From: Candidatus Peregrinibacteria bacterium
GTDB lineage: Bacteria; Patescibacteriota; Gracilibacteria; CAIRYL01
Reading direction: 5' to 3'
Assembly: GCA_016220175.1 (NCBI GenBank)
Contig: JACRHZ010000008.1
Coordinates: 1 to 47,146 of the forward strand
Length of the DNA stretch: 47,146 nucleotides
Below, in pieces: positions 3,036-46,128 of this stretch; positions within the stretch are counted from its first letter, which is position 1; the number at the start of each line of letters is the position of its first letter. The notes beneath the pieces were generated by a model. It made no database searches. It was not told the origin of the DNA and was given only the letters and a program-made list of their open reading frames with translations. The position numbers were made by a program, and so were the translations under genes.

Positions 3036-3059
3036 AGGGGCGGCAGATCTGCCGCCCCT
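3036..3059. repeat. Perfect 24-bp GC-rich palindrome between convergent genes
   Basis: Twelve-base arms AGGGGCGGCAGA and TCTGCCGCCCCT meet without a loop. It lies 1 bp after the radical SAM stop and 8 bp from the end of the convergent TrmB gene. It belongs to the TAGGGGC...GCCCCTA class of dispersed palindromes. It could form a cruciform or act as a two-way transcript end, but it has no T-run. Confidence 0.8.
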
Positions 3060-3067
3060 ACAATGGT

Positions 3068-4450: not shown

Positions 4451-4479
4451 CCGTGCGAGGCACCCGTCCACGGGTGCCC
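4451..4479. repeat. REP palindrome, left of RAYT gene
   Basis: A hairpin GGCACCCGT-CC-ACGGGTGCC (4459-4478) with the flank CCGTGCGA on its left. The whole 29-bp unit is repeated in inverted orientation at 5190-5218 with one mismatch, which places the RAYT gene between a head-to-head REP pair. Confidence 0.8.
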
Positions 4480-4487
4480 GGGAAGAA

Positions 4488-5066
4488 TCATTCGTCCATA
4501 TACGAAATCGGTATTACTGTTTCCTCTCCTAAAAAATAAAACTTCGCACTCGAGAGAGGATATTCTTCAGGAGTCGCTGCAAGTTTCCAGTGCTCTTGAA
4601 GTGGATTCCCATGAATGTAGTCCATCTTTATATTGAAGGTATTATCGTTATCAATAATAAGATCGTCAAACCTTCTCTGCCACACCTGATATTCATGCCT
4701 CGTTATATATTTCTTCGCAGATTTTTGAAAAATATGGAGAAGATCGTCTCTTCTATTATTTTGACACCATTTCACAATTTCTTTTGCACTGTACTCCTTT
4801 ACCCTTCCCATGAGCTCCGAAACAGTCCTGATGTTCCCCATTGTCAGGAGAAGGTGTATATGATTTGGCATGATGACAAAAGCGTGCATTTTTACACAAA
4901 ATTTTTCCCGGTAGAAATTGATAGTACGAATGAGAATTTCTGCAAGATCGGGAATATCAAAAATTTTTGTGAATTCTGTGATAGTTGTCGTTAAAAAATA
5001 TGTTGCATTCTGCCGGAAGAAGAATGATCTATTTCTTTTCACTTTTCCTGAGGGATACGTGTCCAT
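4488..5066 (-). CDS. REP-associated tyrosine transposase (RAYT, IS200/IS605 Y1 superfamily)
   Basis: A 192-residue protein. The HUH metal-binding motif is HIH at residues 69-71 in VIMPNHIHLLL. The candidate catalytic tyrosine is Tyr92 in KEYSAKEIVKW, followed by the RAYT-typical C-terminal block VWQRRFDDLIIDND and YIHGNPLQEHW. Length and the WQRRFDD and HGNP motifs separate RAYTs from IS200 TnpA. RAYTs bind and nick single-stranded REP hairpins, and this one sits between two inverted REP palindromes (4451-4479 and 5190-5218), the usual arrangement of a RAYT with its cognate REPs. No TnpB is present. It looks intact. It may be the protein that handles other palindromes in the window, but that is inference. 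Confidence 0.9.
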   Translation of the reverse strand: MDTYPSGKVKRNRSFFFRQNATYFLTTTITEFTKIFDIPDLAEILIRTINFYREKFCVKMHAFVIMPNHIHLLLTMGNIRTVSELMGRVKEYSAKEIVKWCQNNRRDDLLHIFQKSAKKYITRHEYQVWQRRFDDLIIDNDNTFNIKMDYIHGNPLQEHWKLAATPEEYPLSSAKFYFLGEETVIPISYMDE

Positions 5067-5158
5067 ATTTTCTCATTCCTGTTCGTTTTCCCAATGTAAA
5101 CATTTTTGGAGATATTCTAAAAACCTCGTTCTTAAGATGCTTTTAAAAGATTTTATTC

Positions 5159-5179
5159 TGTCGACGAGGTTCGACGACA
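5159..5179. repeat. Diverged CGAGGT-centre palindrome
   Basis: TGTCG at 5159-5163 and CGACA at 5175-5179 surround ACGAGGTTCGA. The core CGAGGTTCGAC resembles CGAGGTCCGAC in the repeats at 1498 and in recJ at 43468, so this is probably an older copy of the same family. Confidence 0.5.
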
Positions 5180-5189
5180 ATTTCTTACA

Positions 5190-5218
5190 GGGCACCCGTG
5201 GACGGATGCCTCGCACGG
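5190..5218. repeat. REP palindrome, right of RAYT gene (inverted copy)
   Basis: GGCACCCGT-GG-ACGGATGCC followed by TCGCACGG. It is the reverse complement of 4451-4479 in 28 of 29 positions; the mismatch weakens one stem pair. Confidence 0.8.
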
Positions 5219-5296: not shown

Positions 5297-5324
5297 GAAG
5301 GCGACACGGCGCCGTGTCGCCTTC
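5297..5324. repeat. Perfect 28-bp palindrome, GGCGCC centre, intergenic copy
   Basis: Arms GAAGGCGACACGGC and GCCGTGTCGCCTTC meet with no loop. The central 20 bp (GCGACACGGC GCCGTGTCGC) recurs exactly at 45651-45670 between dgt and the riboflavin kinase. Confidence 0.8.
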
Positions 5325-42341: not shown

Positions 42342-42368
42342 TTGCATTTGGCATTTTCCACTTATAAT
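42342..42368 (+). promoter_or_regulatory. recJ promoter, close to leaderless
   Basis: TATAAT at 42363-42368 lies 8 bp before the ATG at 42377, with TTGCAT at 42342-42347 as a -35 at a short 15-bp spacing. Transcription would begin at or just before the start codon. Confidence 0.45.
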
Positions 42369-42376
42369 TGCTTCTG

Positions 42377-44047
42377 ATGATTTCATTTCTTGGAAAAATT
42401 TGGCGCGAGCGAGGAAAATTTTCTTCAGAGAAATCGCTTTTTAAAAACCTTCTGGATGTTCGAAATCGTTCCGAAGCGGATTTTACTGATGCAACATTTG
42501 AAAAACTCTTCGATCCTTTTCTTTTTTGTGATATGGAAAGAAGCGTTTCTCGCATACAAAATGCTCTTGAAAAAGGTGAAAAGATCCTTATTTTTGGTGA
42601 TTATGATGTTGATGGCATGAGTGGAGTTGCTCAACTATTTTTGACAATGAAGATGCTGGGCGCAAATGTTTCGTACAGGCTTCCGAGAAGAGAGGAAGGA
42701 TATGGCCTTTCTTCCCACATTGCTGAAGAAATAAAAAACTCCGGAACTTCACTTGTTCTCACAACGGACTGTGGAATTTCAAATAGACGCGAAATTGAAG
42801 CTCTTCAAAAAGAAAATATTGATGTCATTATTACGGATCATCATTCTCTTAAAGAAGAGCTTCCGCCTGCATATGCTATCCTGCACCCACTTCTTGAGAG
42901 CGAACTTTTTCCCGACAAACACATTACGGGTTCTGGTGTGGCGTTTTTCTTGTGTTATGGTCTTCTTCTCCGTGTGTATGGAAAAGAAAAAAGCAGGCGA
43001 TCTTTGGAGCAGCTCCTCGAGCTTGCAGTGCTCGGGACCATTGCCGATTGTGGTATTTTACAGGGACAAAATAGAATAATTACACTGCTCGGTCTTGAGC
43101 ACCTAAAAAATACGAAAAATCCTGGACTTCGAAGTCTCCTCGATATGTCGAAAAGCGCTGCTGATTCTTTGAATGCGGAGCAAATTGCGTTTTATCTCGC
43201 CCCCAGACTCAATGCGGCAGGACGTCTTTCTGATCCGCATATTTCTTTAGAACTTCTCCTCGGAAATCATACTCGTGCACTTGAGCTCGAAACTCTTAAT
43301 CACAGGAGACAAGATCTTGTGGAAATTTTTTTAGAAAAAGCGGAGAAGATGATTGATGGAAGAGGACAAAATCTTCCGGCATTTCTCCTCAAAAGCGAAG
43401 AATGGCCATCTGGAATTCTTGGACTTCTCGCCGGAAAAATCTGTGAAAAATATGGAAAACCAACTGTTGTTGTCGAGGTCCGACAACAGAAAATGATTGG
43501 CTCATGTCGTGGACCTGATGATTTTCATTTTTCAAAAGCACTGAAGAATGTTGCTGAAGAAAATCCAGATCTTTTTTTGGGATTTGGCGGACATGCTATT
43601 GCTGCAGGATTCTCGATATCTTCGGAAAAATACTCGCTCTTTGAATCCGCTTTTCTTCGGTATGTAGAAAAATCTCGTGGCACGGAAGAGATTCTGCAGC
43701 ATATTGATTTTGATTTTTCTCACCATGAAAAAATTCATGCAGAAGAAATTTTGGAGCTCGAGAATTGCGCTCCTTTTGGTACAGGAAACCCGAATCCGTT
43801 GTTTCATTTTCCAAAAATGAAGATCAAAAATTCGAAAGCTTGTGGGAATGGGAATAAGCATCTTTCGCTTTTTCTCGAAAATCAGCACGGGCAAAGATTT
43901 TCCGGAATATTCTTTGGGCAGGGCGCTCTTCTTGATAGGCTTTCTCAAGACAAAGAAATTGATATACTGGCATCGCCGGAAGTGAGAGAATGGAATGGAG
44001 AGAGGCGGGTGCAGATGAAAATTGTAGATATACGAGGGAATTTTTAA
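42377..44047 (+). CDS. recJ: Single-stranded-DNA exonuclease RecJ
   Basis: About 556 residues. DHH-domain motifs are FGDYDVDGMSGVAQ (about 73-86), TTDCGISN, ITDHHSLKEELP and GTIADCGIL; the DHHA1 domain has FGGHAIAAGFSI; the C-terminal OB domain contains ENCAPFGTGNPNPLF. It is a 5'-3' ssDNA exonuclease used in recombination and repair. Start at the ATG 42377 because earlier in-frame TTG codons overlap the promoter. Oddity: bases 43468-43495 (encoding VVEVRQQKM) are a palindromic repeat identical to an intergenic copy at 1499-1526, and they lie in a variable loop between PTVVV and the GSCRG motif. The last codons lie in the inverted repeat of the following element. Confidence 0.95.
   Translation: MISFLGKIWRERGKFSSEKSLFKNLLDVRNRSEADFTDATFEKLFDPFLFCDMERSVSRIQNALEKGEKILIFGDYDVDGMSGVAQLFLTMKMLGANVSYRLPRREEGYGLSSHIAEEIKNSGTSLVLTTDCGISNRREIEALQKENIDVIITDHHSLKEELPPAYAILHPLLESELFPDKHITGSGVAFFLCYGLLLRVYGKEKSRRSLEQLLELAVLGTIADCGILQGQNRIITLLGLEHLKNTKNPGLRSLLDMSKSAADSLNAEQIAFYLAPRLNAAGRLSDPHISLELLLGNHTRALELETLNHRRQDLVEIFLEKAEKMIDGRGQNLPAFLLKSEEWPSGILGLLAGKICEKYGKPTVVVEVRQQKMIGSCRGPDDFHFSKALKNVAEENPDLFLGFGGHAIAAGFSISSEKYSLFESAFLRYVEKSRGTEEILQHIDFDFSHHEKIHAEEILELENCAPFGTGNPNPLFHFPKMKIKNSKACGNGNKHLSLFLENQHGQRFSGIFFGQGALLDRLSQDKEIDILASPEVREWNGERRVQMKIVDIRGNF
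43468..43495. repeat. Palindromic repeat inside recJ, identical to 1499-1526
   Basis: Arms TTGTTGTCG (43467-43475) and CGACAACAG (43481-43489) around AGGTC. The 28 bp match the intergenic copy exactly. Within recJ it encodes part of the loop VEVRQQKM without shifting the frame. Confidence 0.8.
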
Positions 44048-44517: not shown

Positions 44518-45648
44518 ATGACTTTTCTCCTCACTCGCCAAGATCTCGAAAACCGTGAACTTCACATGCTTCCTCCGTATGCGATTCGGAATGTCGAAAG
44601 CAAGGGAAGAGATCATGAAGAATTGAAGTCTCCAACACGGCTTGAATTTCAACGCGATCGAGATCGTGTGCTTCATTCCAAAGCATTCAGACGTCTCAAA
44701 GGAAAAACCCAGGTATTTGTGGCGCATTATGGCGACCATTTCAGATCTCGTCTTACACACACTCTTGAAGTTGCTCAAATTGCGAGGTCGCTTGCTCGAA
44801 TTCTTCAGGGAAATGAAGATCTCTCAGAAACAATCGCTCTTGCGCATGATCTCGGACATACTCCTTTTGGACACGCCGGTGAAGAAGCAATGCGAGAACT
44901 CATGCATCGATTTGGGCTTGATTTTGAACATAACGCTCAGAGCCGAAGAATTGTCGAAATTCTCGAAAAACGAAATCCAAATTACGATGGACTGAATCTC
45001 ACGAAAGAAAGCCGAGAGGGACTTTTTAAACACGTGTCTCCGCATGATCGACAAAAACATAAACTCGCTGAAAATGCTTTTTTAGAAGCACAAATTGTGG
45101 ATTCTGCAGATCAAATCGCGTACCAAAACCATGATATTGATGATGGGCTCCGGAGCGGAATCTTGTCTCTCGATGATCTTTCAAAACTAGATATTTGGCA
45201 AAAAGTTATGGCAAAAATTCCGAGTGGCGGGTCAGAAGAGGTTTGGATTTCACGTCTTGTTTCTGGGCTTATTAATGAAATGGTCGAAAATCTTTCAAAA
45301 GAAAGCGCTCGTAAAATCGCTGAACTGAAGCCGAAAACACCAGATGATATTCGTAATTCAAAAGAAAAAATAGTCGGATTTTCTCAGGAAATGGAAGATA
45401 TGAATACGCAGCTTCGGCATTTTCTCTTTTCATGTTTTTATAAAAGTTCACAAGTAATTGCGCAGAGTACAAATGGAAAAGAAACGATTAAAAAGCTTTT
45501 CTTTTATTTATATGATCATCCCGAAAGTCTTCCAGAGAATTATTACCAGCTTGTCCAATTTGGCGAAAGAAAAGAGGTCGTTCTCAAGGATTTTATTGCA
45601 GGGATGACGGATGATTTTGCGCTGAATTTGGCAGATTCTTTATCCTGA
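44518..45648 (+). CDS. dgt: dGTP triphosphohydrolase (HD-domain dNTPase)
   Basis: A 376-residue protein. The HD phosphohydrolase domain has RSRLTHTLEVAQIARSLAR (first His about 82) and LAHDLGHTPFGHAGEEAM (HD pair about 110-111), with the third metal Asp in QIVDSADQIAYQNHDIDDG. RDRDRVLHSKAFRRLKGKTQ near the N-terminus is typical of the Dgt family. It hydrolyses dNTPs to nucleoside and tripolyphosphate; substrate preference (dGTP or general) is not readable. Its start follows directly after the IVS-like element, so its original upstream region has been replaced or separated. Its TGA stop is shared with a 28-bp palindrome. Confidence 0.93.
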   Translation: MTFLLTRQDLENRELHMLPPYAIRNVESKGRDHEELKSPTRLEFQRDRDRVLHSKAFRRLKGKTQVFVAHYGDHFRSRLTHTLEVAQIARSLARILQGNEDLSETIALAHDLGHTPFGHAGEEAMRELMHRFGLDFEHNAQSRRIVEILEKRNPNYDGLNLTKESREGLFKHVSPHDRQKHKLAENAFLEAQIVDSADQIAYQNHDIDDGLRSGILSLDDLSKLDIWQKVMAKIPSGGSEEVWISRLVSGLINEMVENLSKESARKIAELKPKTPDDIRNSKEKIVGFSQEMEDMNTQLRHFLFSCFYKSSQVIAQSTNGKETIKKLFFYLYDHPESLPENYYQLVQFGERKEVVLKDFIAGMTDDFALNLADSLS

Positions 45649-45674
45649 AAGCGACACGGCGCCGTGTCGCTTTC
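45647..45674. repeat. Perfect 28-bp palindrome, GGCGCC centre, between dgt and the riboflavin kinase
   Basis: Arms GAAAGCGACACGGC and GCCGTGTCGCTTTC with no loop. It includes the last two bases of the dgt stop codon, and its 20-bp core is identical to that of 5297-5324. A GTG inside its right arm (45664) is in frame with the downstream gene. Confidence 0.8.
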
Positions 45675-45684
45675 CAGAAATATC

Positions 45685-46128
45685 ATGCAATTTTCCGGCC
45701 ATACCATCACAGGCGAAGGACGCGGGAGAAAAATCGGATTTCCGACGGTAAATGTTGAATTGCACGTAGGGGACGCATACATGCGTCCCTCGCAAAATCA
45801 TGAAGGTGTATTCGCTGTCCGTGGAAAAATCTTCACAAGTGAGGGTCACCCGCCTACGGGTGACCCTTTTGAAGGCATTGTCCACATCGGTCCTCGCCCA
45901 ACTTTTGACAGTTTCGACATGAGTGTCGAAATTCATATTTTTTCTAGTAGAGACGCGATTCATCGCGTCTCATTTTCAGATATTCCAGAAAATTCGCCAA
46001 TTGAATTTGACATCATTGGCGAAAAGATTCGTGATGTAAAAAAGTTTGATTCTGAGGAAGAATTGAAGAAGCAAATTACGAAGGATTGCGAAGGAGCGAA
46101 GGAGATTTTGAAAAAATCACATAATTGA
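45685..46128 (+). CDS. Free-standing riboflavin kinase with three palindromes in its reading frame
   Basis: About 147 residues from the ATG at 45685 (MQFSGHTITGEGRGRKIGFP). It matches the C-terminal flavokinase domain of RibF: GEGRGRKIGFPTVNVEL, EGVFAVRGKIF, FEGIVHIGPRPTF, EIHIF and the terminal KKFDSEEELKKQITKDCEGA. The FAD-synthetase N-domain is absent, so it would make FMN only. Three different GC-rich palindromes lie inside the frame and encode GDAYMRPS, EGHPPTGDP and SRDAIHRVS. Each falls in a loop between conserved strands, and the frame is kept. An in-frame GTG at 45664 within an upstream palindrome could give seven more residues. It probably makes a working enzyme, but this is inferred from the intact motifs. 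Confidence 0.85.
   Translation: MQFSGHTITGEGRGRKIGFPTVNVELHVGDAYMRPSQNHEGVFAVRGKIFTSEGHPPTGDPFEGIVHIGPRPTFDSFDMSVEIHIFSSRDAIHRVSFSDIPENSPIEFDIIGEKIRDVKKFDSEEELKKQITKDCEGAKEILKKSHN
45770..45789. repeat. Palindrome GGGACGCAT-AC-ATGCGTCCC inside the riboflavin kinase gene
   Basis: Nine-base arms with a 2-base loop, flanked by GTAG on the left and TCGC on the right, a TAGGGG...CCCTCGC pattern shared with the REP flank TCGCAC. Encodes GDAYMRPS in frame. Confidence 0.8.
45842..45867. repeat. Palindrome AGGGTCACCCG...CGGGTGACCCT inside the riboflavin kinase gene
   Basis: Eleven-base arms around CCTA. Encodes EGHPPTGDP in frame, at a predicted hairpin turn between two conserved strands. Confidence 0.8.
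45950..45971. repeat. Palindrome GAGACGCGAT-TC-ATCGCGTCTC inside the riboflavin kinase gene
   Basis: Ten-base arms with a 2-base loop, preceded by GTA. Encodes SRDAIHRVS in frame, after the conserved EIHIF strand. Confidence 0.8.

Follow-up and report, generated by a model that had tools for sequence, protein, structure and literature searches.

Three different hairpins, two of them GTAG REPs, lie in frame within a riboflavin kinase gene of a Candidatus Peregrinibacteria bacterium

A stand-alone riboflavin kinase gene in a Candidatus Peregrinibacteria genome contains three different palindromes, each read in frame as part of the enzyme. We propose, with a probability of roughly 0.88, that REP-type palindromic elements entered this gene at three separate places, that a REP-associated tyrosine transposase (RAYT) is the most likely mover, and that copies lying in frame in loops are those that survive. 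The window referred to throughout is the whole stretch of DNA that was analyzed, 47,146 nucleotides of contig JACRHZ010000008.1 from assembly GCA_016220175.1.

Palindromes of the kinase gene

The kinase locus holds the following features.

45647..45674, no strand assigned: upstream palindrome GAAAGCGACACGGC/GCCGTGTCGCTTTC, which shares bases with the preceding gene's stop codon; 11 family copies
45685..46128, plus strand: stand-alone riboflavin kinase (flavokinase domain) gene, 147 aa; PF01687, 6.1e-24
45766..45789, plus strand: GTAG REP 1, GTAG followed by GGGACGCAT-AC-ATGCGTCCC, 24 nt, encoding VGDAYMRP; 3 genome copies
45842..45867, no strand assigned: untagged hairpin AGGGTCACCCG-CCTA-CGGGTGACCCT, encoding EGHPPTGDP; core CACCCGNNNNCGGGTG at 9 places
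45947..45970, plus strand: GTAG REP 2, GTAG followed by AGACGCGAT-TC-ATCGCGTCT, 24 nt, encoding SRDAIHRV; 13 family copies

The open reading frame of 444 bp is intact, and a profile search matched its whole length to the Flavokinase family; it is the single riboflavin kinase match in its own genome. Within it lie perfect-armed palindromes at 45770-45789 (arms of 9, loop of 2), 45842-45867 (arms of 11, loop of 4), and 45950-45971 (arms of 10, loop of 2), and a fourth, with arms of 14 and no loop, stands directly upstream of the gene. The first-pass annotation had described just this arrangement, and its coordinates, perfect arms, and intact flavokinase gene agree with ours. It had also assigned a short peptide to each palindrome, which is borne out with a small shift of limits: with the tag included, elements 1 and 3 are exactly 24 nt each, and the peptides become VGDAYMRP, (E)GHPPTGD(P), and SRDAIHRV(S). 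Approximately 24 of the 147 residues are repeat-encoded, and the enzyme is, as had been suggested, partly made of repeat sequence.

Palindromes are in excess in this DNA. Thirteen with arms of at least 9 nt occur in the window compared with 3.2 in shuffles, and five with arms of at least 11 nt compared with 0.3; 4 of the 13 cluster within 325 bp at the kinase locus. One could regard the palindromes as chance products of codon choice in loops that vary naturally, given that the lengths of the three loops differ among relatives. Nevertheless, this idea is almost certainly wrong, as evidenced by the excess over shuffles, by exact matches in other phyla, and by a simulated chance of about 5e-5 that one gene of at most 470 nt would receive three of 20 intragenic palindromes. 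Moreover, the same 20- to 28-nt sequences recur in the genome with zero control matches, and this recurrence already contradicts the coincidence.

Comparison with relatives favors insertion. We compared the kinase gene with those of 29 relatives drawn from its family, order, and class; a congeneric genome was not among them, and so an empty site was not observed directly. GC-rich palindromes with arms of at least 8 nt are absent from all 29 genes, and none of the 29 relatives carries the element peptides at these loops, as the idea of insertion had predicted. The region from PTVN to EKIR measures 94 aa here and 70 aa after the removal of 8 residues (24 nt) per element; the median among relatives is 72 aa (range, 66 to 95). 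Two relatives are equally long in this region without palindromes, and the kinase loops are therefore naturally permissive. Absence from the relatives and recurrence in the genome uphold the earlier claim that palindromes repeatedly entered this gene, and we infer that the hairpins are selfish.

A single-sequence structure model of the kinase, of low confidence (pLDDT 56.5), finds its best fold matches among riboflavin kinases. In this weak model, the three peptides fall between predicted strands 19-27 and 41-50, 41-50 and 62-70, and 79-85 and 105-116. The location in surface loops claimed at first is consistent with these positions between strands, although a model of such low confidence tests it weakly.

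REP class of the elements and the RAYT genes

Membership in the GTAG REPs was judged by the presence of GTAG or GTGG 0 to 2 nt 5' of a fully paired stem of 7 to 20 nt with a loop of 2 to 5 nt (PMC6006769). The elements at 45766-45789 and 45947-45970 have the tag, a 9-bp stem, and a 2-nt loop, which together with the second arm make 24 nt, or eight codons, and they represent two different stem families of GTAG REPs. Neither base of the hairpins at 45842-45867 and 45647-45674 has GTAG or GTGG, which places both outside this definition, and we file them only as recurrent hairpins that are tied to RAYT genes by position.

All four palindrome families were counted genome-wide by pattern, and backwards-control patterns gave zero matches for each. 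The sequence of GTAG REP 1 has three genome copies (at most three mismatches), the core CACCCGNNNNCGGGTG of the middle hairpin occurs at nine places (at most one mismatch), two of which flank the RAYT gene of the window, and GTAG REP 2 has 13 family copies. The family of the upstream palindrome occupies 11 places, with some members beside and inside a RAYT gene on contig C15. These per-family copy numbers are modest (3 to 13), and they confirm the expectation that the kinase palindromes would recur elsewhere in the genome.

The 1.49-Mb genome has nine Y1_Tnp (PF01797) or RAYT-type transposase genes, of which one lies in the window. Its surroundings are as follows.

3038..3061, minus strand: intergenic GTAG REP GTAGGGGCGGCAGATCTGCCGCCC
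4459..4478, no strand assigned: hairpin GGCACCCGTCCACGGGTGCC on the 3' side of the RAYT gene
4488..5066, minus strand: RAYT gene with HUH motif; NF047646, 101.4 bits against a cut-off of 80; PF01797
5191..5210, no strand assigned: hairpin matching GGCACCCGTCCACGGGTGCC in inverted orientation, on the 5' side of the RAYT gene
5297..5324, no strand assigned: intergenic copy of the upstream palindrome's family (GAAGGCGACACGGC)

Three of the six Y1_Tnp genes tested (those of the window, C28, and C6) exceed the NCBI RAYT cut-off (NF047646), while those on C11, C55, and C72 score below it and have GTAG hairpins within the open reading frame. A sequence identical to GTAGGGGCGGCAGATCTGCCGCCC also lies inside the RAYT gene on C11 and inside QueE on C57.

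The kinase hairpins are a striking case of a known repeat class, the REPs, and not a new class, because two of the three elements fit the GTAG REP definition, the genome has RAYT genes, and intragenic GTAG REPs were published in 2013 (PMC3733652). As in that definition, the elements are repeated in the genome (13 and 3 family copies; 35 GTAG hairpins in 665 kb) and RAYT genes are present in it (nine PF01797 matches). The initial description of an analogous but unrelated class of palindromes was correct in separating them from the Rickettsia palindromic elements (RPEs), from which they differ in tag and size, and incorrect in setting them apart from the known REP superfamily, for which intragenic copies are on record (PMC3733652). 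The elements bear GTAG and measure 24 nt, and so they have neither the CGTC tag of RPE-4 and RPE-6 nor the length of an RPE; insertion in frame into unrelated functional genes is nonetheless a trait that they share with RPEs.

Several RAYT genes (L006, L007, L008, L009, and L011) themselves contain in-frame palindromes, downstream of the part that encodes the HUH region, and the L009 gene has two GTAG hairpins that face outwards around a repetitive stretch. Elsewhere in the window, a recurrent palindrome, GTTGTCGAGGTCCGACAAC, is intergenic at 1497-1521 and lies at 43468-43488 within a 559-aa RecJ-like open reading frame (42368-44047).

GTAG hairpins in other genes

The hairpin survey covered 41 stretches amounting to 665 kb, or about 45% of the genome, which are approximately 86% coding by simple gene calls. 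REPs are named for being extragenic, and 17 of the 35 GTAG/GTGG hairpins in this sample lie inside gene calls. All 17 are read through in open frames, with about three in doubtful calls (5' ends or a short open reading frame). The genes concerned include PheT, TrpCF, and PriA, with two hairpins each, and RadA, QueE, IleRS, RsmF, and two RAYT genes; the names RadA, IleRS, and RsmF were assigned from domain content and, for RadA and IleRS, also from general features of these families. The kinase is one instance of a genome-wide pattern in which transposase-linked repeats supply approximately eight residues each to housekeeping proteins. Four genes have at least two GTAG copies, against 0.29 expected if 14 strict intragenic copies are assumed. 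The GAGACGCGAT family has 13 copies in the whole genome, and 7 of these lie inside unambiguous genes. Intragenic copies are also seen in a 25-nt family, GTAGAGACAAGGCAATGCCTTGTCT, and therefore 24 nt is not a strict rule.

PheT provides the clearest comparison. Both of its REP peptides, VETRFIAS and VETRYSAS, are absent from relatives up to 52% identical, and the two REPs, 12 nt apart, could stem from a single dimer insertion. The REP peptides of PriA (KTRFIAS and RDKAMPCL) and RadA fall within stretches that vary among relatives, with alignments less clear than those of PheT. In TrpCF (VETRLIAS and VETRYSAS), judging from sequence comparison, the first REP appears to have taken the place of host residues more than to have lengthened the protein, and so pure insertion is not general.

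These other genes bear on whether the kinase gene is decaying, with the insertions marking loss of function. Three insertions clustered in one small gene would fit such decay; however, all 147 codons form an unbroken frame, the match spans the entire PF01687 profile, no second riboflavin kinase match was found in the genome, and it is unlikely that PheT, PriA, IleRS, and RadA, with similar insertions, are all dead. We therefore hold decay to be very improbable, and we consider it likely that the decorated enzymes are functional and tolerate their insertions.

A somewhat less remote idea, though still an improbable one, is that the hairpins persist because they have a role in mRNA or DNA, such as RNA stability, translation pausing, or protein binding, with the added peptides as a side effect. 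REPs are known as RNA elements (PMC3733652), and the untagged AAGCGACACGGC family is mostly intergenic, with many copies at most about 26 nt from a stop codon. Nevertheless, the same hairpins occur in many unrelated genes at varied positions, as wandering elements would, they are absent from the kinase and PheT genes of relatives, and no common regulatory context was seen.

The reading that we prefer, entry by REP-type elements, has a simple mechanistic form. By analogy with published work on RAYTs and REP hairpins (PMC2817692 and PMC3733652), a RAYT, as an HUH/Y1 transposase of the IS200/IS605 type, would most likely move the hairpins as single-stranded DNA, and intragenic copies would survive only where the frame is kept and the loop is permissive. 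Translation from the G of GTAG gives VETRxIAS or VGDAYMRP, and another frame gives xRDAxxRV. Two of the three frames are usually open because the remaining one runs into the TAG of the tag. In-frame survival would explain the pattern, and an assumption of targeting is therefore unnecessary.

Two further genes deserve mention in their own right. A class I tRNA synthetase of 1,289 aa, probably IleRS (L028:598-4467, plus strand, contig C11), carries a histidine phosphatase domain (PF00300, 7.2e-36) that occupies residues 544-710, with a part of the synthetase domain on either side; a GTAG REP, read as RRDKAMPCL, lies in the same gene. In a gyrase B-type gene (L217:13490-15655, minus strand, contig C30), a copy of the AAGCGACACGGC palindrome seems to lie in frame near residue 31, and this copy may precede the true start.

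Distribution and comparison with known systems

The 24-mer GTAGAGACGCGATNNATCGCGTCT has a patchy distribution: none of the eight genomes that share the family and order of this one has it, yet it occurs in 12 others of the 192 searched in the class. Exact copies of a 25-mer version occur, among the matches listed, in Nostoc, Calothrix, Bacteroidales, Methylococcales, several candidate-phylum genomes, and others; 22 of 125 examined copies lie inside stop-free frames of at least 200 codons, as defined by frame length alone. The palindrome GTAGAGACGCGATNNATCGCGTCTC (L062-L178) has exact counterparts, among the matches listed, in Cyanobacteria, Bacteroidota, Gammaproteobacteria, Spirochaetia, and candidate-phylum genomes; so perfect an agreement between phyla suggests that REP/RAYT pairs were transferred or converged. 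Literature searches on the kinase palindrome, and on REPs or RAYTs in Patescibacteria/CPR, found nothing relevant in the collection of papers searched.

A bolder idea, which we offer only tentatively and think doubtful, is that GTAG REPs in this lineage act as a protein-extending cassette. Such a cassette would have 24 nt and two open frames, would be about as often genic as intergenic, and would repeatedly hit tolerant genes (the kinase, PheT, TrpCF, and PriA), so that essential enzymes would gain peptides from it, and one and the same 24-mer would circulate between phyla. In any case, the genome lends itself well to the questions of whether such insertions do harm, bring a benefit, or have no effect and whether RAYTs have an insertion preference. 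There is also a warning for annotation: where VETRxIAS or RDAxxRVS turns up in proteins that are unrelated, the source can be repeat DNA and not common descent.

Among known systems, RPEs are similar in that palindromic repeats lie in frame within functional genes and the protein tolerates them. They are longer (approximately 150 bp by the account in PMC10969869), and the CGTC type bears a CGTC tag (PMC3733652), unlike the 24-nt GTAG elements here. REPtrons and their RAYTs (Nunvar et al. 2010, PMC2817692) resemble the RAYT gene of the window, which has an HUH motif and inverted hairpins on both sides (4459-5210); unlike in REPtrons, these flanking hairpins lack GTAG, and several other RAYT genes here have GTAG hairpins inside their coding sequence. 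Closest are the GTAG REPs of Di Nocera et al. 2013 (PMC3733652), whose intragenic copies hit some genes twice and which share with those described here GTAG beside a short perfect hairpin, several families per genome, RAYTs, and intragenic copies. Classical REP genomes often have hundreds of copies per family, whereas families here have 3 to 13. What is unusual compared with the published GTAG REPs is how densely the elements are packed: one enzyme of 147 aa contains three hairpin families, two with GTAG and one untagged, and takes about one-sixth of its length from them, and roughly every second GTAG REP of the sample falls inside a gene call.
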